Assembly (NCBI GenBank): GCA_019096195.1
Contig: JAGTXK010000157.1
Location: 62,001-126,000, forward strand
Direction of reading: 5' to 3'
DNA: 64,000 nucleotides
Source: Boletus sp. NGJ
Taxonomy: Eukaryota; Basidiomycota; Agaricomycetes; Boletales; Boletaceae
The position numbers were made by a program, and so were the translations under genes. The notes below the pieces were generated by a model. That model searched no databases, was not told where the DNA came from, and worked only from the letters and a program-made list of their open reading frames with translations. Below are positions 39,429-64,000 of this stretch, one piece after another; the first letter of the stretch is position 1, and each line of letters begins with the position of its first letter.

Positions 39429-41579
39429 ATGCTGACCATTCAGCAAGACCAAGCGAGGGTACTCGACAGCGGTGACTCTGAGAAGGGTGTGGACAGTCGC
39501 TTTCCATCCCGACGGAAAGCATCTGCTTGGGCGGGACCGACGATGGGGTTCGACGATGGCGACTTGATGATGGTCAAGAGGTGGGAAGGCAGATGGGCAT
39601 GGACATGTACGCCATTTGTGTGTCGATGAATGGCGAGTGGGTAGTGTGCGGGACTGGGAGTGGGGCAAGCGTGTGGGACGGAGAAATGCACAAGAAGATC
39701 ATCGACGTGGAGGCACAGAAAGACGGTGTTTGCGGTCGACGTCTCCCCAGACTCGACAAGGTTTGCGACCGGGACTGACAAAGGTGCGAGCATTTGGAGT
39801 ATCGCGAGTGGGCAGAGACTCGTTGGCCCACTACAACATGACACGGACAGTTGGATCATGGGAATTCGATTCTCTCCGACTGGCAAGCAGATCGCCACTG
39901 CCTGCGCGGGGAGATCCATCAACATTTTCGACAGTACCACGGGCAACAAGCTTGTCACCATCAAAATTGACATATTCAGCGTGGTGTCCACTCCGCTTGC
40001 GTGGTCAAGCGACGCCCAGCAAGTTTTTGCTGCATCCACTGACAAGAAAATCAAGTCATTCACTGTCTCCACTGGGTCCCAGTTTGCTGAATCACAGATT
40101 CTACGTGACGGCGACAATGATGTCCGCTCTATCGCTCTAGCTGCCAATGGGAAATTCATTGCTACCTATGCAGGGAATTCAATCTCGTTCCTGGACCCAT
40201 TGACGCTCACACGGATTGGCTCTGTCATCGAGGACGGTGAACAGATACGATCAATTGCAATATCTGCAGACAGTAGTTACCTTGCGACTGGACAAGTCGG
40301 CGGAAAAATTGCTATTCGTCATCTCAGCAAGATTTTCCCGGACCTGTATGGTCCGTTCCATGTAAGTAGTCATAATCCTGGCATACTGGATAACATTCTG
40401 TCACCCATGCTGACAAACTATGTAGGTACCGGCTAGCGAAGAAGTACAAGAAGAAGAACGACCCTCGAGTGGCCGCGAAAGCGAAGTACCAGACTCTAAT
40501 CCAGTCGGAGTCTGTCATTTCATCACCACAAGAGTTGTACTGACTCCATTTGTACATGCAGCAGGTAAAATCTAGTGCATCCGAGTCTGGAAGACACAGT
40601 GAAGATGGCCATCGTGATTTGCTCGAGGTATCAATTCATTCATTCCCCCCTCGAAACGAGTTCTCATAATGGCATAGCACGAGGTGCCGTCGAGCAAACC
40701 TGCTCTCGAGTTCGATTATGACGACGTTGGTGATCACTTTATTCTCCTCTTGCATCCGCATTGACACTGCCGAAGTCATTATCCTCGGCCCCCTCTTCCG
40801 ATGCTCGTGAGGACGAGGCACCACGGCCGGGCCCATCCCATCCCATATCGCAGCCAGATGCCCTACCCGTGCCCTCCATTCCAGAGACACGGCCAGAGGA
40901 AATCTGGACACTGTCGAGCCACCCCAGGGCCGTTCGAGATTCAAAAAGTGGCGACAGAGAATGGGTAACAAAGCCCCGGCTTCGTATAAACCACAACGAC
41001 GTTCCACAAAGTCACGCAAGCCTGCGGACCGGCGATCCCCCTCTCCTACCCCAGCGAGAGTGGAGGACAGGCAAGAGGGACCTTCCAGGATGGCTGTGAG
41101 TGCACTTCCTTGATGGTCGATCGAATGCGGTGTCGAACATATCTTATAAGGCGGCGCGTAACAAAATCATTAAACTGCCAACGGTTCGTCATTCCTCGGA
41201 TTTGGATGCAGGAACTCATCACATGACACAGAGTCGGGACAAATCACGCAGCAAGACTAAGCATCCGAAGAAAGACGATTCTCATAGTGCAGGGCACGGT
41301 GCTGCGAATACAACGGAAGCAGACCCCGTGCGTCTCTTCCTGCACATGGTGGGCCTCGTCACGCCAGCTCACGTCCCATTAGGTGCAACAAGCGAGCAAT
41401 CCATCCCAACCCTCGACCGGGAGACTCCATCTAGCAGTACGCACCACTTTTCGTTAACCTACATTGTGAGACTTACAGTAGATCAGCGTCAGCAAGGTTC
41501 AGCTGATGCTACCCTTTCGTTCAGGTTTCCCGCATGGATTTTGTGTGTTCGCTCAAGTGTGCAAGATGGGACACATTGA
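39429..41579 (+). pseudogene. WD40-repeat gene, copy 4 (decayed)
   Basis: Sister of copy 2. Starts MLTIQQDQARVLDSGD (ATG 39429). It carries the same extra base in catctgcttggg as copy 2, plus its own shift near 39482 and one near 39715. After that the frame is open for about 230 residues (TVFAVDVSPDSTRFATGTD to DLYGPFHV), longer than in copy 2. Introns at about 40360-40426 and 40502-40563, then the stop TGA 40762-40764 before the basic tail RFKKWRQRMGNK. The 3' block 41100-41579 is identical in translation to 12743-13222. Confidence 0.82.
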
Positions 41580-46754: not shown

Positions 46755-48354
46755 CAGTGGCTCAAAAAAAGTGTCCCAATGTTTGACTATTTTGCAAAGA
46801 CTTGACATTTGCAAAAGAACCAAAAGGTATCAGCCCTAACCCTTGCTGGGCCATTGATAGCCCTGATCCTTGCCCTGAAGATGAGCCCTTAGTCATGTGA
46901 GTTGGTTGTCATGGTACTGAGTTATAGCCATATTAAAAGGATATGTCATTGGGACACTTATTTGACCCTAATATTATCAACTATCATTTAGTAAATAACA
47001 TAAGGTTCTGATGGATGCTGTGCTTCAACCCTGTCTGATTATGTCACTTACATAACTCCAAATGGTATAAAGAGCAGAGATACCATTCAGCCAACCCTAC
47101 TTTATTATGAAATCCACTCCCTCCTCTGCTAGAGCCAATATTCTTTTTCTCTCTGAATCTGGCCTTTCTACTAGGCAAATATCATTCCAAACTGGTCTGG
47201 GGAAGTCTACTGTGGCCAGGGTTATCAAGGAGATCCACCCAGGCAAGGAAAACATCAAATTAGGATGTCCTTCTAAACTTTCTCCTACTGATAAAAAGAG
47301 AATTGTTTCTAGTATTACCTCTGGCAAAGTTGAAAATGCTGTCCAGGCTACCCATCTCATCAATTCTGCTCTCTCTTCTCCTGTCTCTGCTCAAACTGTT
47401 AGGAATGTTCTCAAGTCTGCATCTCTCAAGGTTGTAGTCAAGAAAAAGAAGCCACTCTTGTCTGTGAAGCATAGGCAACATAGGCTAGCCTTTGCTCTCA
47501 AGCACCAACATTGGACTGTGGAGGACTGGACTAGGGTTATATGGTCAGATGAAACCAAGATCAACAGGATTGGGTCAGATGGAAGGAAGTATGTATGGAA
47601 ATTGGCAGGAAAGTCTTTGCAAGACAAGGAAGTTTAGGGAACAGTAAAGTTTGGAGGAGGTTCCTTGATGGTTTGGGGATGCATGAGTTGGAGTGGAGTG
47701 GGGATTCTCGCAGAGGTTGAAGGGAGGATGAATGCTGAGCAGTATGTCTCCATTTTGGAGGATAATCTGCTTCCTTCCATGGAAAATTCTGGAATTCCTG
47801 AAGAGAGCATTATCTTTCAACAAGATAATGACCCCAAGCACACCTCTAAAAGAGCCAAGGGGTGGCTGGAATCTCAAGGGATCAAGCTTCTTGACTGGCC
47901 AGCACAATCTCCAGACCTTAATCCCATTATACATCTCTGGCAAATCCTCAAAAAAAAACTCAATAGCTATACAACACCACCAAAAGGAGTATGGGAGCTT
48001 TGGGAGAGAATTGAAGTGGAGTGGGGGAAGATAGAGGTTGAGGAGTGTCAAGGATTGATAGAGAGTATACATAGAAGACTAGAGGCAGTGATAAAAGCAA
48101 AGGGAGGGCATACAAAGTACTAAATTGAAGAATAGAAATGTTGCTCAAAAAAGTGTCCCAATGACATGTCACTTTAATATGGCTATATCTCAGTGCCATG
48201 ACAACCAAATTATATGACTAAGGGCTCATCTTCAGGGCAAGGATTAGGGCTATCAATGGCCCAGCAAGGGTTAGGGCTAATACCTTTTGGTTCTTTTGCA
48301 AATGTCAAGTCTTTGCAAAATAGCCAAACATTGGGACACTTTTTTTAGCCACTG
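46755..48354 (+). mobile_element. Complete Tc1/mariner transposon M2
   Basis: 1,600 bp, flanked by TA on both sides (46753-46754 and 48355-48356). Terminal inverted repeats of about 212 bp (46755-46966 and 48142-48354). Each contains two copies of aagtgtcccaatg in opposite orientation, at its outer and inner ends. It is inserted in the Tnp2 transposase gene of the CACTA element, and is therefore younger than it. Confidence 0.96.
47107..48123 (+). pseudogene. Tc1/mariner transposase, copy M2, with stop and lost catalytic Glu
   Basis: The frame runs from ATG 47107 to the stop at 48121-48123, interrupted only by TAG at 47635-47637, where copy M1 has CAG (Gln, in DKKVQGTVK). Domains: helix-turn-helix at residues 18-45 (STRQISFQTGLGKSTVARVI), DDE domain from residue 115. 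First aspartate in WSDETK and second in QDNDPKH are present. The third acidic residue, glutamate of NPIEHLW in M1, is isoleucine here (NPIIHLW, about 47925-47945). Full length would be 338 codons, usual for Tc1 proteins. Two independent reasons make it inactive. Confidence 0.93.
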
Positions 48355-51904: not shown

Positions 51905-53560
51905 TTAGCTTGCTCGTGTCTCCATGCTTATTGTGTTTTGTGTTTGCTCTGTCGAATAGATCGCATCCCGGGATCCCTCGTGCGAGACCGTTGGCGGTAA
52001 CGTCGCCCCATCGTCCCGCTGTCCGTCCGTCAGTCCTCCCACCAGCACTGCCGGACATCGACATCTTCTTGTTGGACGGGTTGGGGATGGATGGGGTGTG
52101 GTCGACGGATGAGAGTACGATGATCCGGGACAGGCGGAGAAGAAGCGACGGTTGCTGAGGATGTTGGGCGAGGTCCAAGCAGAGGCGGGTGGTGGCTGTG
52201 ATGGAAAGGCTCGGAGTGGGTGGGGCCGCGCGGGGTGGCGTTGGCAGCGGTGCTGACGATGTGGGTAGGACGCGACAAGGTCGCTGGATTTAATGGGTAG
52301 AATGGGACGTGTTGTAAGTTAAGACGGTACGATCTCGTAGGAATATACATTTCTCAGTGTTTTTCTAGCGTTGCATCGTTTTGGTCCTTTGACATTCGGA
52401 AGGACCCATCCTCCTGGTTGGCTAGCCCAAACTAATGAACCAAAAAAAAATGCTTCGCTCTGGACTACAGGTCGGGTGGTTCCGAGGAGCCGTACCTGGG
52501 TCTTACAGTAATCGTTGTGAGAGCTTGGTCAAGTCCCCGGATGGCATTCAATAAGGGCATCGACTATAACCAGTGGTTTCTGACCCGACAACCCTGCTCG
52601 ATGTGAATCCAACGAGTTGCTTGGCCACGTCACGAGACCTCGAGGGAATGAATGACGACCTAGTACGAAGCAGAGTCCGAGTCAGCGTTATCGAAACGAA
52701 ACGTGATCATACCTCGAGATTGAGCTCGAGTACGTCTTTCTGTTCCCGAATGTGGACTGCTTGCCTGGTCGTCGCAGTCACGTAGCTGGGATCCGAGTAA
52801 CAATATAAGCGCCAAAGACACGAGGCAAACAAACCATATTGAGAACGAGGAAACGTGTTCAGCGACTCTCCATAGCACGATTTCACTCTTCCAATCCACG
52901 ACGATGTCGACGACGAATACCGGTGCGTAGCAGCCCCGTAGAGCGATTGAGCGATACTGACCTTTCAGTAAGACCAAGCAAGGGTACTCGACAGTGGTGA
53001 TTCTGAAACGGTGTGGACAGTCGCTTTCCATCCCGACGGAAAGCATCTCTTGGGCGGGACCGACGATGGGGTTCGACGATGGCGACTTGATGATGGTCAA
53101 GAGGTGGGAAGGCAGATGGGCATGGACATGTACGCCATTTGTGTGTCGATGAATCGCGAGTGGGTAGTGTGCGGCACTCAGAATGGGGCAAGCGTGTGGG
53201 ACGGAGAAATGCACGAAAAGGTCATGAAGGTGGAGGGCACAAAGACGGTGTTTGCGGTCGATGTCTCCCCAGACTCGACCAAGTTTGCGACCGGGACTGA
53301 TGAAGATGCGAGCATTTGGAGCATCACGAGTGGGCAGAGACTCGTTGGCCCGCTCGATCGTGATGTCAGGGGAATTCAATTCTCTCCGACTGGCAAGCAG
53401 ATCGCAACAGCTGCCTGCGCGGGGAAATCCATCAACATTTTCGACAGTACCACGGGCAACAAGCTTGTCACCATCAAAATTGACATATTCAGCATGGTGT
53501 CCACTCCGCTTGCGTGGTCAAGCGACGCCCAGCAAGTTTTTGCGACATCCGGTGACGACA
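51905..53560 (+). repeat. Segmental duplication, block B second part (flank plus start of WD40 copy 5)
   Basis: Homologous to 18676-20335. Richer in CpG than that copy. Includes a small coding-like piece at about 52110-52190 (AEKKRRLLRMLGE) that is also present at about 18890-18950. Confidence 0.9.
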
Positions 53561-54997
53561 AAATCAGGGCTTTTGCTGTCTCCACCGGGTCCCAGCTTGC
53601 TGAATCACAGATTCTACGTGACGGCAACAATGATGTACCCTCTATCGCTCTAGCTGCCAACGACAAATTCATCGTTACCTTCTCAGGGAATTCAATCTCG
53701 TTCCTGGACCCATTGACGCTTACACGGATTGGCCCACATGTCATCGAGGACAGTGGCCGGATACAGTCGATTGCCATATCTGCAGACTGCAGCTACCTTG
53801 CGACTGGACAACAGCACGGAAAAATTGGCATTCGTCATCTCAGCAAACTTCTCCCAGACTCGTATGGTCCCTTCCATGTAGGTAGTCATAATCCTGGCAT
53901 GTTGGATAAACTCCATTCTGTTACCATGCTGACAAACCACACAGGCACCCACTAGCGAAGAAGTGCGACAGGACAAGGGGCCTTTGACATCGAGCGGCCA
54001 CGACAACGAACTACCCGACTCTAATCCGGTAGGAAATTGTCGTGTCGTCATGAACGAGTTGTGCTGACTCCATCTTGTACATACAACAGGAACAACCTGG
54101 GAAATCTAGTCCACTCAAGTCGGAGGGACACAGGGAAGATGGCAATCGTGATCTCCTCGAGGTACCAGTTTCTTCATTTCCCCCTCGAAGTGTGTTCTCA
54201 CAATGCCATAGCACGAGGGGCCGCCTGCTCTCCAGTCATTTGACTATAACGAGGTTGGTGATTACTTTATTCTCCTGTTACTTCCGTGTTAACATTGCTG
54301 GAGTCAATGGCCTCCTCTTTCGATTCTCATGAGGGCTCTCATGGGGATGAGGCACCGCCGCTAGGCCCATCTGGGCCATCCCACGCTATATCGCAGTCGG
54401 ATGCCCTACCCGTGCCCTCCACTTTAGAGACGCGTCCAGAAGGAAATCTCGACACTGCTGAGTCACCCCAGGGCCGTTTCATATTCAAAAGGTGGCGACA
54501 GAGAATGGGTAACAAAGGCCCCACTTCGCATAAGCCAGGTCGACCTTCCGGAAAGTCGCACGAGCCTGCCGATCGGAGATCTGCCCCTGCCCCAGCGAGA
54601 GTGGAGGACAGGCAAGAGGAACTTTCCAGGATGGCTGTGAGTGCACTTCCTTGATGGTCGATCGAATGCGGTGTCGAACATATCTTATAAGGCGGCGCGT
54701 AACAAAATCATTAAACTGCCAACGGTTCGTCATTCCTCGGATTTGGATGCAGGAACTCATCACATGACACAGAGTCGGGACAAATCACGCAGCAAGACTA
54801 AGCATCCGAAGAAAGACGATTCTCATAGTGCAGGGCACGGTGCTGCGAATACAACGGAAGCAGACCAAGTGCGTCTCTTCCTGCACATGGTGGGCCTCGT
54901 CACGCCAGCTCACGTCCCATTAGGTGCAACAAGCGACCAATCCATCCGAACCCCCGGCCGGGAGGGTCCATGTAATGGTGCGCGTGATATTCTTTAG
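53011..54997 (+). CDS. WD40-repeat protein gene, copy 5 (best preserved)
   Basis: Beta-propeller scaffold type; role unknown. From MWTVAFHPDGKHLLGG the frame stays open for about 290 residues to DSYGPFHV, covering about seven blades: RRWRLDDGQEVG, ASVWDGEMHEK, ASIWSITSGQRLVG, SINIFDSTTGNKLV, KIRAFAVSTGSQL, SISFLDPLTLTRIG, KIGIRHLSKLLP. Introns at about 53878-53945 and 54029-54091 (GT-AG), then EQPGKSSPLKSEG and, after a third intron, DYNEVGDYFILLLLPC with a stop TAA 54290-54292. A different frame continues downstream with PEGNLDTAESPQGR and KRWRQRMGNK. The true start is unclear: upstream, the conserved ATGCTGACC of copies 2 and 4 reads ATACTGACC followed by TAA in frame. It may be a functional gene with an altered start or a mildly damaged one. 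Confidence 0.6.
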
Positions 54998-59200: not shown

Positions 59201-59997
59201 CTAGTACACGAACGGTACGAGCTTATACTTTACCCGCCCCGCCCAGCTCTCCCACTCCTTCCCAAATCTTTCCGATAAGAACTGATCCTCCTCCGTTGAA
59301 CGACGAAATAGCGTGACGAGCACCGCCGCTTTGAGCAAACACCATCCAACCGCCACCGCCCTGACCCACCCCCTACTCAGCATACCCGAAGCGCGCAACC
59401 ACGATCCAGCCGCGCCATAAACGATGCACGACCCTAGGATGCACATACATATGCCCGTGTAACCCGGATGACGCACCACGGCGTACGGACCGGTCGTGAC
59501 GAGCTTGTGCTCCTTGCGGATGCACTGCTCAAACGTAAAGTACCGACCCATGGTGTGGTAACATTGGACGCGGAGGATCCCGCCCGCTGTGACTAGAATC
59601 GCGCCGAGGACGAACGGGACTGTCAATTTACTGGCTTCGGCAGGCCCGAGCGCGTTCAGGATTGCCGACATGGTATCGGATGACCGTGGCGTGCCCTCCA
59701 GCGAGCCGATGATGACAATTGACTCCGCCACGGTGGTTAGCCACATGGTGCCCTGATTGGATAGGTGAGTACTTCACAGTTGCACGTCGCTTTGGGGAGA
59801 GAGACCTGTAGGAATACAATGCAAGGTAGCGTAGCGTCTTTCCATATCCGCTCCCGGGTAGATGTCGCTATGATCTTGTCTTCAGGATCAGGATATGATG
59901 TGCGGTAGTGGGCGAAATGATAGGAAATCGACAACGAGAGCAGCAGAGGTAGCTTGAGCAAAGACATGGCGGTGGTAAGCGGATGGGGAGCGAGCAT
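59201..59997 (-). CDS. Isoprenylcysteine carboxyl methyltransferase-like membrane protein
   Basis: ICMT (Ste14-type) enzymes in the ER membrane methylate the C-terminal prenylcysteine of CaaX proteins, including fungal lipopeptide pheromones, using S-adenosylmethionine. Exon 1 59997-59806, intron 59805-59753 (GT-AG), exon 2 59752-59201; 247 residues from the first ATG, or 237 from the better-placed ATG 59967. Family motifs: RVQCYHTMGRYFTFE, TTGPYAVVRHPGYTG (the RHPxYxG signature, about 59445-59490) and the ending RFGKEWESWAGRVKYKLVPF. Hydrophobic segments at the N-terminus, around VPFVLGAILVTAGGIL and at AVGWCLLKAAVLVTLF. The frame is intact. Mushrooms often have several ICMT-like genes, so it need not be the housekeeping one. 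Confidence 0.85.
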
Positions 59998-60975
59998 CGT
60001 AAGTTTTATAACGCTTACTCTGATACAGGGTCAGTGAGCCTAATCTTGATCCAGGTTAAATGGCATGTGTGCGCTCAGATCAGAGTTATGGTAGCGTCAG
60101 ATGATGTGCAACGTTTTATCGCTTGCCGACACCAGCTGCGATCGGAGGGCGCAGCTAATAAAAAAGGAAATGCTAGACTTTTCTGCAATGCTAATTGGCT
60201 ATCACTGGTCTTATCTATGCGAATTTAGAAGACCGAACAGCCAACTATTATATCATCACACATGTGTCAGTACCACGCTGTACCTTCGTGTCTTCCCACT
60301 CGCACGCCAGTGGCTCTTCAAACACTGGTGCAAGGCAATCGATGATATAAAAGAGAATATGTATGAAGGGCGCATCCGCATTCAGTCATAATGCGTTGGC
60401 ACGATTTCGACCCATCAGCAACCCAATTTCCGTCGATCGTATCGCGGAACATGAAGTGATGAAGGTGTACAATATACTATCATTGAAGCGGAACTCGTGT
60501 TTCTATGGGTATTTGTGCCGTGCCGGATAGCGAACGGGTGAGTAGTTGAAGTTCTATTCTCAAAATCTTTGTGGCTTTGATGGAATGATAGCATCAACTG
60601 CGTCCCAATGGATCTGAGCTCGCATCTCGGCCATGATAAAGTGTGCTATCGTAAAAGCGGACTTCGCTCGGTAGCAGTTGTTCCATTTCAGAATTTCTAA
60701 CAAAGACAAAAGAGGTGGCGCATCCAGCAGATTTGAAGCCTTTACTTTAATTGCGCCGACAGAGACATGGAGGGTGAAGCTTTGAAGAAATACATGATAA
60801 AGAGTTTGTACCGTCGTGGTTTCTGTCCGAGGTCTAATTGCTCCAACAGTCCACAAGAGTGCCAATCGCGAATCGTTGGGGCTGATATCGCGAAAGTCAA
60901 TGGAGATATTACGTATGCGTCAGTCAGCATCAACGCTAACACGTTCTCGTCCACGTTTCACTCTCACTCACCACG
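59998..60975. other. Intergenic, nothing recognised
   Basis: Short open frames on both strands without motifs. The part next to 59997 is the presumed promoter of the methyltransferase-like gene. Confidence 0.5.
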
Positions 60976-61152
60976 ATGACAGACTTCAGGCCCAGGCCCC
61001 TCCTCCCCGAGTTCACCGAAGACAATAACCTCCGCACCCTACAGGGGAACAACATTCTGGTCCACTTCAGCGCTTTCATCGTAAACTCGTCGCTTTTAAT
61101 TGCGTTCGTGATCAAAACCAATATTGGGTTAACCACTGATTTTACGACTTAG
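60976..61152 (+). CDS. Possible small protein or first exon, unassigned
   Basis: ATG 60976 after a pyrimidine/CA-rich leader (ctctcactcaccacg) opens MTDFRPRPLLPEFTEDNN and a hydrophobic stretch AFIVNSSLLIAFVI; 58 residues to TAG 61150-61152. An intron (gttcgtgatc ... ttacgacttag) would remove the last part. I do not recognise the product. It could be the start of a longer decayed gene. Confidence 0.3.
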   Translation: MTDFRPRPLLPEFTEDNNLRTLQGNNILVHFSAFIVNSSLLIAFVIKTNIGLTTDFTT

Positions 61153-61644
61153 CATCGATTTCTGCCGTTAATGAACGCGACTGAGGTTACCTTGTCCTCT
61201 TGTGCGAAATGAAACCGGCAGAAGCACCTCACCATGTGTAATTCATAAACACGCACGCTTGGCACAGTCAAGCATACAAATTCCATTTCTCCTGCGCCCC
61301 ACCGATCCTATATTATCTATTAAAACAATAATACTAGGTCGAAGGTCGAAAGTATATATACGTGCAAATGTCGAACGAATAAAGATGTGATGTGCGCCGA
61401 AAATCGAAGAATGGCCTCCCAAGGAATGCAGCAAACTTCGCTACAACGGGACGTGGTATGATGGCGATGGTAATAATGACGACAATGGTGTTAAATGTGT
61501 GTAATGAGGCGTGCGATGCTAAGAATGAGAATAACGGAGGTGAGCGCTGCACGATCAACGTGAATTCACGAATAGATCTACTCACAACAAAAAATACTTT
61601 AGTGCACGGGCGCTTTCTATCGCGTGAGTCCAACGAGTGAACGT

Positions 61645-61767
61645 TCACGCGACGACGCAGTAGCTGCCGCCGGAGTTATTGTTCGAGGACTCGACGGGAA
61701 TCGACGAAGTGACCTCCTCGTGGTCGGAGCTGGTGAAGACAGAAAGGATGGTGCTGAAGGAATCCAT
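61645..61767 (-). CDS. Mating pheromone precursor (CaaX lipopeptide)
   Basis: Forty residues starting MDSFSTIL and ending GGSYCVVA, i.e. a Cys-Val-Val-Ala CaaX box at the very C-terminus. This is the standard layout of basidiomycete pheromone precursors: a short MDSF-type start, a Ser/Thr/Glu-rich middle, a processing site about 10-14 residues before the Cys, and a farnesylated, carboxymethylated mature peptide. A likely cleavage lies near IPVE/SSNNN, though the common Glu-Arg pair is not seen. The ATG at 61767 is chosen because it gives the family start; an upstream in-frame ATG exists at 61857. A TATA box lies upstream. An ICMT-like gene is 1.6 kb away on the same strand. Confidence 0.85.
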   Translation of the reverse strand: MDSFSTILSVFTSSDHEEVTSSIPVESSNNNSGGSYCVVA

Positions 61768-61902
61768 GTCTGACTGGGATGATGAGATGCGGGCGGCACG
61801 CGGAACGAAAGCAAGCAATGCGTTGATGTGCGAGACGGTTCCTAGACGTGAGGACACAGCTGCCTTTTTTAAAGCTGGAGGGGGAACGATACTCTCGTCA
61901 GC

Positions 61903-61911
61903 CTTTTATAA
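61903..61911 (-). promoter_or_regulatory. TATA box of the pheromone precursor gene
   Basis: Minus strand reads gttataaaagg, about 140 bp before the ATG at 61767, a usual distance for a strong, regulated fungal promoter. Confidence 0.5.
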
Positions 61912-61994
61912 CGTTGAGGCTCCTCATACTGAGAACGGGTGTGGGTCCCATGTTTCACAGTGTGAGGTCGCCCCACGGTGCCTGTTGCGTTGAC

Positions 61995-64000
61995 ACTGAT
62001 CATGACCACGGCACTTCCATCGTTTAAACCCATCCCTCCCGGTTACTCCTTGTCCGAAGAGTCCCAAAGGGGCAGCGCAAAACAATAAGCATGATGAATG
62101 GCGGCGCTCCGGCAAAGTGCAGAGTGGCCACATCTATTGCAACGCGAGATCAGCACATATTGTCGCTTCTGTCATTCACAATAAAGCCCATCCAGATGTA
62201 GCAAGCCTAGTAAGATTTAGGGCTAACGTTATTTAATGTCTACGGCCCCGCATGGACGTTGCGAACCGGACCTGAAGGTGAGCCCACGGAACCAGGTTAC
62301 ATGTTACACAGGCTCCTCTGCTATACGTCTTTGATGGGCGAAAACAAAAGAAACGAGGTCCCTCGGCAAAAAATTAAGGCGACATGAAATCATGGTCTCT
62401 CGGATGCAAAACTCTACGTTTTCCGTTGGGACGGATCAACAATTACTCAGTAGCGCGCGACACAGGTAAGTTAGGACTGGACACCGTTTCAACGACCTCA
62501 TCGGATGATCTGTGATACGATCAACACCGCCGTATTCCACTCTACTTGACCGTTGGCTCCCCTTGGCCAAGGGTTCATTTCAAAGTCCAGTGGCCACGTT
62601 ACCAGCGCTCCAGAAATGCACTCGCGACATCTCAAGCCTGCCTGGCACTGCCTACCTGTGATCCGCAGGTACCAACGCCAATGCCCTTTTATGTAGTCGT
62701 GCCTTTTCCCCCGTTGATCGCTCCCGGTCTCGAATTATACATCGTTTCGTGCGTGCCCCTTTTTAATGTTTTACGTCTTCTTCTTTTTTTTGCATGACTT
62801 CTGGAATGTCTCATTGCCATCATTACAAGGTATATTGTGACCCGATTGGGCGACATTTTTGGGGGGAGGGTCGCAGACAAAAAAGAAACAGGAAAGGGTT
62901 GTAGCTGTAAGCATGAACGTTGTTCTCTACCTTCAGGTTGCCAGTGAGTCCGCGCGCGCCGTGGCCCGTTGACGTACCGAGTACACCACTGCGCTCGTGA
63001 CCTCTAGACCTCTCGTCTGGAGCACCTGTCGAGACGCCATGAAATGGAGGGGACGGCGTGTACTCTACGATACGCTGCTGTTTCAGCAGGTTACGTTCGC
63101 TCCACTGCGTGTAACGACCCAAGACTTTGGGAGGTGAGTAATTTCGAGACGAAGAGGAAGAAGAAAATGCTCAGTAGCCCACATTCCCAGCGGGAAAATG
63201 TAAGAAGAGAGGTGACTCTTTCGTGCGTCCTTCCACCTCTCTATGAGAATCGCCCGGCAACGATTTTACATTCACACTTGCCTCTCCCTCTGAGCAAGTC
63301 GTGCGATCAGCTGGTGTACACAGTAAGGTGAGACCGGATACTTGCGATGAACGACTCGGATACAATCACACCACGAACGTATCGAGGTAAGCCTCGGACT
63401 CGGTCGGTTGTGCCATCGCTACTCGACACTATTTTCAAAACACGTCAAGTACGCCCGCCCGTAGCAAGATGCGCAGCGTCCGGTCCGATCCGCAATAGCC
63501 AAGTTCGCGTTCAAAAAGTTACTGTTGCTTGCAGAATCAGCATTCAGCGATTTATATCATCTCTGGTGTACAACCCCGTTGTTCGAGGGCCATGACTGAC
63601 AGCATTGTGTTGGAGATTAAATGTGAGAGGACTTAATACTCCAAGCGTTCTCAGTGCCGTAGAATAGAAGAGACTGGGAGCGTACAAAGGAGCATCGTCC
63701 CGACGGATTTCAGCCTGGTTACGCTTCCGATAGCCTGCCGTACTGCGTTCGTGGTCGTTCGTTCCTTGCCCAGACAATGGCGTCAGATATCGGCATCCGC
63801 TGGTTATTGTGTACAGTGCTCTGACTCAGAGGTTAAAAAAAACTTTGGGTACCTCACTACCGCCATGGTCGTCGGCATGAGTACGACGCCATGTATCCCC
63901 CATGTTGTCATCAACTTTGAACATACCCGGCAAACGCACTCATCGACGTGGCCAGTTGTTGGTAATCCTTCCAGTGGGACTTGTTATCAAATGGAGGGCA
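61995..64000. other. Window end, no supported gene
   Basis: Scanned on both strands for a Ste3-type receptor, further CaaX-ending short genes and other motifs; none found. Open frames such as 63044-63331 (plus) and 62823-63122 (minus) lack recognisable features. Confidence 0.5.

Follow-up and report, generated by a model that had tools for sequence, protein, structure and literature searches.

We analysed a window of 64,000 nucleotides from Boletus sp. NGJ, corresponding to C27:62001-126000 (C27 is contig JAGTXK010000157.1) in a genome of 32,776,125 bases and 141 contigs. A gene for a short lipopeptide ending in a CaaX motif and an ICMT-like gene are found in this window (Table 1). Both genes are on the minus strand, and the distance from the stop codon of the peptide gene to the ATG of the ICMT-like gene is 1677 bp, in agreement with the spacing of 1.6 kb given in a preliminary description of this DNA.

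Table 1. Features at the peptide gene and the ICMT-like gene (window positions)
Feature	Position	Strand	Basis
ICMT-like gene, exon 2, with RHPGY and EED...FG.EW stretches	59201..59752	-	PF04191 51.3 bits, PF04140 48.4 bits
ICMT-like gene, intron, 53 nt, GT...CAG	59753..59805	-	predicted splice model
ICMT-like gene, exon 1	59806..59967	-	splice model from sequence; 39 aa matched at 62% in paralog L016
Duplicated block with the pheromone gene	61130..63263		blastn, 70% identical to C118:98064-100071
Candidate 67-nt 3'UTR intron, GTGAGT...GCTCACC...TTAG	61519..61585	-	alignment read by eye
Pheromone-like lipopeptide precursor, 40 aa, CaaX end CVVA	61645..61767	-	intact frame and genomic relatives
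CaaX motif CVVA	61648..61659	-	same in 3/3 intact loci
Codons 27-36, diverged, expected bulk of the mature peptide	61660..61689	-	tail dN between intact loci
Leader, codons 1-26, constrained	61690..61767	-	low dN relative to dS
TATA box (GTTATAAAA on the minus strand), 137 nt upstream of the ATG	61904..61912	-	identical in 4 aligned loci

The peptide frame is intact, as had been described, and its translation is MDSFSTILSVFTSSDHEEVTSSIPVESSNNNSGGSYCVVA. The N-terminus is MDSF, which is of the MD.F type, and the end is SYCVVA. By a loose pattern there are nine CaaX-ending short frames in the window. By a stricter pattern there are two, where 60 Markov-simulated windows averaged 1.13. A CaaX-ending short frame alone is within chance expectation; paralogs were the deciding evidence for a gene.

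Five matches to the peptide, including itself, were found in its own genome, all with E values of 5.7e-10 or better, and a second query returned the same set. The four further places are C24:17653, C118:99418 (C118a), C118:136059 (C118b), and C118:137456 (C118c). C24:11310-25176 and C118:92001-105883 are 99.8% identical over 13.9 kb, and therefore the C24 copy was counted as a duplicate of C118a. The near-identical stretches could be a haplotig, an assembly duplicate, or a recent duplication. The frame of C118b is broken within the tail. The distinct intact loci are thus three (C27, C118a, and C118c), on two contigs.

The leader (codons 1-26) is constrained among the intact loci (dN 0.017-0.034, dS 0.12-0.45), with a dN of 0.017 and a dS of 0.452 between C27 and C118a, and a dN of 0.034 and a dS of 0.270 between C27 and C118c. 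From codon 27 onwards (the tail, with CVVA), dN was 0.26-0.42 and dS was 0.11-0.50 among the three intact loci. The dN/dS of the tail was about 0.8 to 3.5, so replacement was about as frequent as synonymous change, or more so. The contrast between leader and tail reached significance in one pair, C27/C118a (Fisher p 0.0025), but not in the remaining two (p 0.16 and 0.20), all on small counts of changes. Besides CVVA, the tail residues common to the three intact loci are S27, N30, G33, and Y36. A kept leader, a fixed CVVA, and a mostly changed tail are the pattern expected of basidiomycete pheromone precursors. The paralogs, this selection pattern, and the kept TATA box support the earlier assignment of the frame as a putative pheromone precursor, and the peptide gene is very probably real.

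The three intact members scored 12.5, 11.3, and 12.4 bits with the Pfam Pheromone profile (PF08015), all below the cut-off of 22. A genome-wide search with this profile gave zero matches, which shows little, as the search had no working positive control. Likewise, a genome search with one Rhizopogon peptide for further pheromone families returned nothing and shows little. When the peptide was aligned with six Rhizopogon precursors, M1, D2, F4, and C37 were invariant. In the running text of the literature searched, neither the leader sequence nor the tail sequence together with the word 'pheromone' was present.

The preliminary description had regarded the lack of the usual Glu-Arg processing pair as unusual. 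None of the three intact copies has an ER pair, or any of the pairs ER/DR/EH/NH/EE/DE, 9-14 residues before the cysteine; an EE pair is found 19 residues before it. The absence stood, but it is not decisive, since the cut sites listed for Agaricus in the available part of PMC8305134 include all of these pairs and not ER alone. The Rhizopogon paper states that the precursors carry 'ER' motifs (PMC5473757, available part); by our own reading, one of the 11 sequences fully visible in that passage has a literal ER close to its end. Because published precursors vary, the missing pair was taken as a failed feature that does not exclude a pheromone precursor.

The TATA box was identical in 4/4 loci, with the C24 duplicate left out of the count. 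Both ends of the candidate 3'UTR intron agree in C27 and C118a, while the corresponding ends would be GC-AG in C118c and are lost in the broken copy. Shorter blastn matches to the duplicated block were found around C118b and C118c. For a second coding gene in this block of about 2.1 kb, many frames matched alike and by eye none was outstanding. The C27 contig contains many internal repeats. A Tc1/mariner-type transposase in two frames (HTH_Tnp_Tc3_2 and DDE_3) is at window positions 47107-48123, and DNA 96% identical to this element is present on C118. The window also contains a WD40-repeat frame (53116-53955, 279 aa) and, by eye, a similar frame at 39599. Laccase and peroxidase families were considered as lifestyle markers: nine of 15 rows of laccase-type (Cu-oxidase_2) matches were on contig C74, outside the window, and a genome search for Peroxidase_ext, run without a positive control, gave no match.

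The uninterrupted frame of the ICMT-like gene is 59201-59746 on the minus strand, and GT-AG splicing would extend the gene to an ATG at 59967, giving a predicted protein of 237 aa. The minus-strand frame that had been described is confirmed, and the gene looks intact. Exon 2 scored over the cut-off for both PEMT (PF04191) and ICMT (PF04140). A genome search with PF04140 at E 1 gave 15 rows, which were grouped into 14 places, 10 of them above the cut-off. One of these places, C27:128688-129371, is about 2.7-3.4 kb past the window end and about 4.9 kb from the peptide; it is a further ICMT-like gene or remnant of another subtype, on the opposite strand and with apparent introns or stops. Two of the ICMT-like places, the gene on C124 (exon pieces joined by eye) and the gene in the window, were compared with the solved ICMT/STE14 structure 5v7p. 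The E value was 8.7e-34 for the C124 gene and 0.004 for the protein of the window, whose weak similarity to 5v7p covers the RHP.Y half of its catalytic region. The C124 gene appears to be the STE14/ICMT orthologue, and the window's gene was rejected as the STE14 orthologue, since C124 is far closer to 5v7p. The closest relative of the window's gene is on C42 (134/184 columns identical, dN/dS 0.38). In a tree of nine rows, these two genes paired (85/97), and an ICMT-like gene on C56 clustered with two genes from C10 (96/99). The predicted structure of the window's protein was a poor model (mean pLDDT 63.9 from 8 sequences), and a structure search with it found no PDB match at E 0.001.

A whole-genome profile search for STE3 receptors (PF02076, E 0.001) gave 24 exon matches, on C56, C102, C73, C59, and C16. 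There was none on C27 (139 kb), C118 (231 kb), or C24, and tblastn of eight receptor exons had no hit below E 0.05 in C27:52001-136000, C118:92001-152000, or C24:1-30000. For lack of STE3, a P/R locus within the window is not supported. The preliminary description had seen no Ste3 receptor nearby and had left two possibilities: that the peptide gene marks a B/P-R mating locus, or that it is a satellite pheromone gene outside it. The genome-wide search agrees with the lack of a receptor and speaks against the former, while the latter fits the finding that neither of the two contigs with the three intact loci has a STE3 match.

The STE3 matches on C56 form a cluster of four genes by our own grouping, between 100.5 and 111.7 kb, within about 11 kb. 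CaaX-ending frames near receptors were scanned in C56:82001-122000 and in 10 kb each of C73, C102, C59, and C16. Several were found by the loose scan, none of which resembled the C27/C118 family or was convincing by eye. One of them, C73:389660-389893 (77 aa), starts with MDFD, ends with CIIT, and follows the STE3 match of C73 at a distance of about 0.5 kb. Another, C59:278405-278548 (47 aa), starts with MDRA, ends with CSAT, and precedes the STE3 of C59 by 4.6 kb. For neither frame was there a genomic paralog at E 0.1 or a Pfam match; they may be unrelated pheromones or chance frames, and a pheromone adjoining the C73 or C59 receptors is unsupported. These frames slightly lower our confidence in the satellite reading. 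The available part of PMC9498453 reports that no precursor could be found within about 20 kb of the Gomphus purpuraceus receptors.

We propose that 61645-61767 encodes a farnesylated pheromone precursor that belongs to a satellite, non-mating-type pheromone-like family outside the receptor locus, with a probability of roughly 0.72. A satellite is preferred to a mating-type cassette because the family is small, lies in repeat-rich DNA, and has no receptor match on its contigs. It could be argued instead that the peptide is a mating-type pheromone and that C27 and C118 belong to the active B (P/R) locus, from which they were displaced or wrongly separated, with the receptors on C56. The tails have changed between copies, which could mean different receptor specificities and would suit mating-type pheromones. 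Moreover, the contigs are repeat-rich and short, and C56:82001-122000 has no recognisable pheromone-like CaaX frame, so the pheromones of C56 would be elsewhere or were missed. But in addition to the lack of STE3 matches on C27, C118, and C24, blastn of C56:82001-122000 against C27:52001-136000 or C118:92001-152000 gave one 26-bp match only, and the near identity of C24 and C118 over 13.9 kb is unlike diverged mating-type alleles, though it may be an assembly duplicate. We therefore regard a displaced mating-type locus as unlikely. It is far less probable still that the peptide is a chance open frame inside a duplicated, repeat-rich block. The duplication takes in the whole block of about 2.1 kb, and many non-coding frames in it match too, but a chance frame is not expected to have synonymous change per site far above replacement in the leader together with the tail ratio reported above, and frames with an MD.F start and a CaaX end numbered one in the window and zero in the simulation (60 windows, 3.84 Mb in total). 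The paralogs and the selection pattern thus make a chance frame very improbable.

A further idea, which is compatible with the satellite reading and would add to it, is that the ICMT-like gene encodes a methyltransferase dedicated to the neighbouring pheromone peptide. It is possible that this gene performs the last step of pheromone maturation. It lies close to the peptide gene on the same strand, the nearest STE3 match is about 0.7 kb from the end of a related ICMT-like gene on C56 (C56:99192-111683 region), and the further ICMT-like match on C27 is not far from the peptide. In Boletales, ICMT paralogs distinct from STE14 were found near B-locus genes in all those examined except Pisolithus (PMC5473757, available part). 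ICMT-like places are near pheromone or receptor loci more often than expected by chance: when 10 to 14 ICMT-like places and eight loci for pheromones or receptors are placed at random, the probability of at least two lying within 2 kb was 1.1e-4 to 2.1e-4, for a radius chosen post hoc. The co-location is only suggestive because of this choice of radius and because the search at E 1 gave no ICMT match on C118, the contig of the other intact peptide loci. Several other observations argue against a dedicated enzyme. No pheromone-like frame is present in 9.2 kb around the closest paralog on C42, where a single loose CaaX-ending frame was not pheromone-like. (Around the ICMT-like places on C109, C97, and C124, the CaaX scan covered 1.5 kb per side, and the surroundings of C7 were left out.) The C56 and C27 ICMT-like genes are not sisters in the tree, the PEMT score of exon 2 slightly exceeds its ICMT score, a STE14 orthologue is present on C124, and the poor fold model found no ICMT among the 38 matches listed. 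On balance a dedicated methyltransferase is doubtful. The broader proposal, that divergent ICMT-like enzymes were recruited more than once beside pheromone and receptor genes as pheromone-dedicated C-terminal methyltransferases, is more speculative and quite unlikely. If true, a satellite pheromone with a variable mature region and its own ICMT-like enzyme would have its specificity set by maturation as well as by sequence.

Fungal a-factor maturation proceeds through farnesylation, removal of the last three residues, carboxymethylation, leader cleavage, and export. If the satellite precursor of the window follows this path, the cysteine of the CVVA end would be farnesylated, the last three residues would then be removed, and the new C-terminus would be carboxymethylated (see also the available part of PMC8305134). 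Cutting off the leader would leave a peptide of roughly 9-14 residues, and the mature peptide would be exported, to be recognised by a STE3-type receptor (PMC8305134, available part). We infer expression, processing, export, the receptor, and any part played by the ICMT-like neighbour.

The peptide gene would be of a known kind, and the neighbourhood is interesting, though unproven. Annotation often overlooks pheromone genes of this length (PMC5473757, available part). A family with a fixed leader and a changing tail outside the receptor locus would be a test bed for satellite pheromone roles, for which fruiting, self-signalling, and a source of new mating specificities are candidates, and the ICMT neighbourhood gives a testable idea on dedicated maturation enzymes.

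The following comparisons refer to the available parts of the cited papers. Similar to the B locus of Rhizopogon and other Boletales (PMC5473757), the peptide has an MD.F start and a CaaX end, and non-STE14 ICMT paralogs are near pheromone or receptor genes. In those fungi, however, receptors, precursors, and ICMTs are in one region, while here the peptide and the ICMT-like gene share a contig without a receptor match. The mature stretch differs from the GGGSGNxAYC consensus quoted in PMC8305134, where Agaricus bisporus precursors are given with motifs of Coprinopsis cinerea and Laccaria bicolor, and varies between loci, and unlike in Agaricus precursors, the listed charged pairs are absent before it. 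In Pycnoporus, four alike precursors were read as resembling non-mating-type ones (PMC4101180). In Agaricus bisporus, four precursors are apart from the receptors (PMC8305134). Three of the four are located next to a TE-rich centromere, and three expressed precursor genes have 3'UTR introns. The family described here resembles these non-mating-type precursors in its short MDS/AF...CaaX form, its alike copies, its lack of linkage to receptors, and its TE-rich surroundings, and a candidate 3'UTR intron is found here too.
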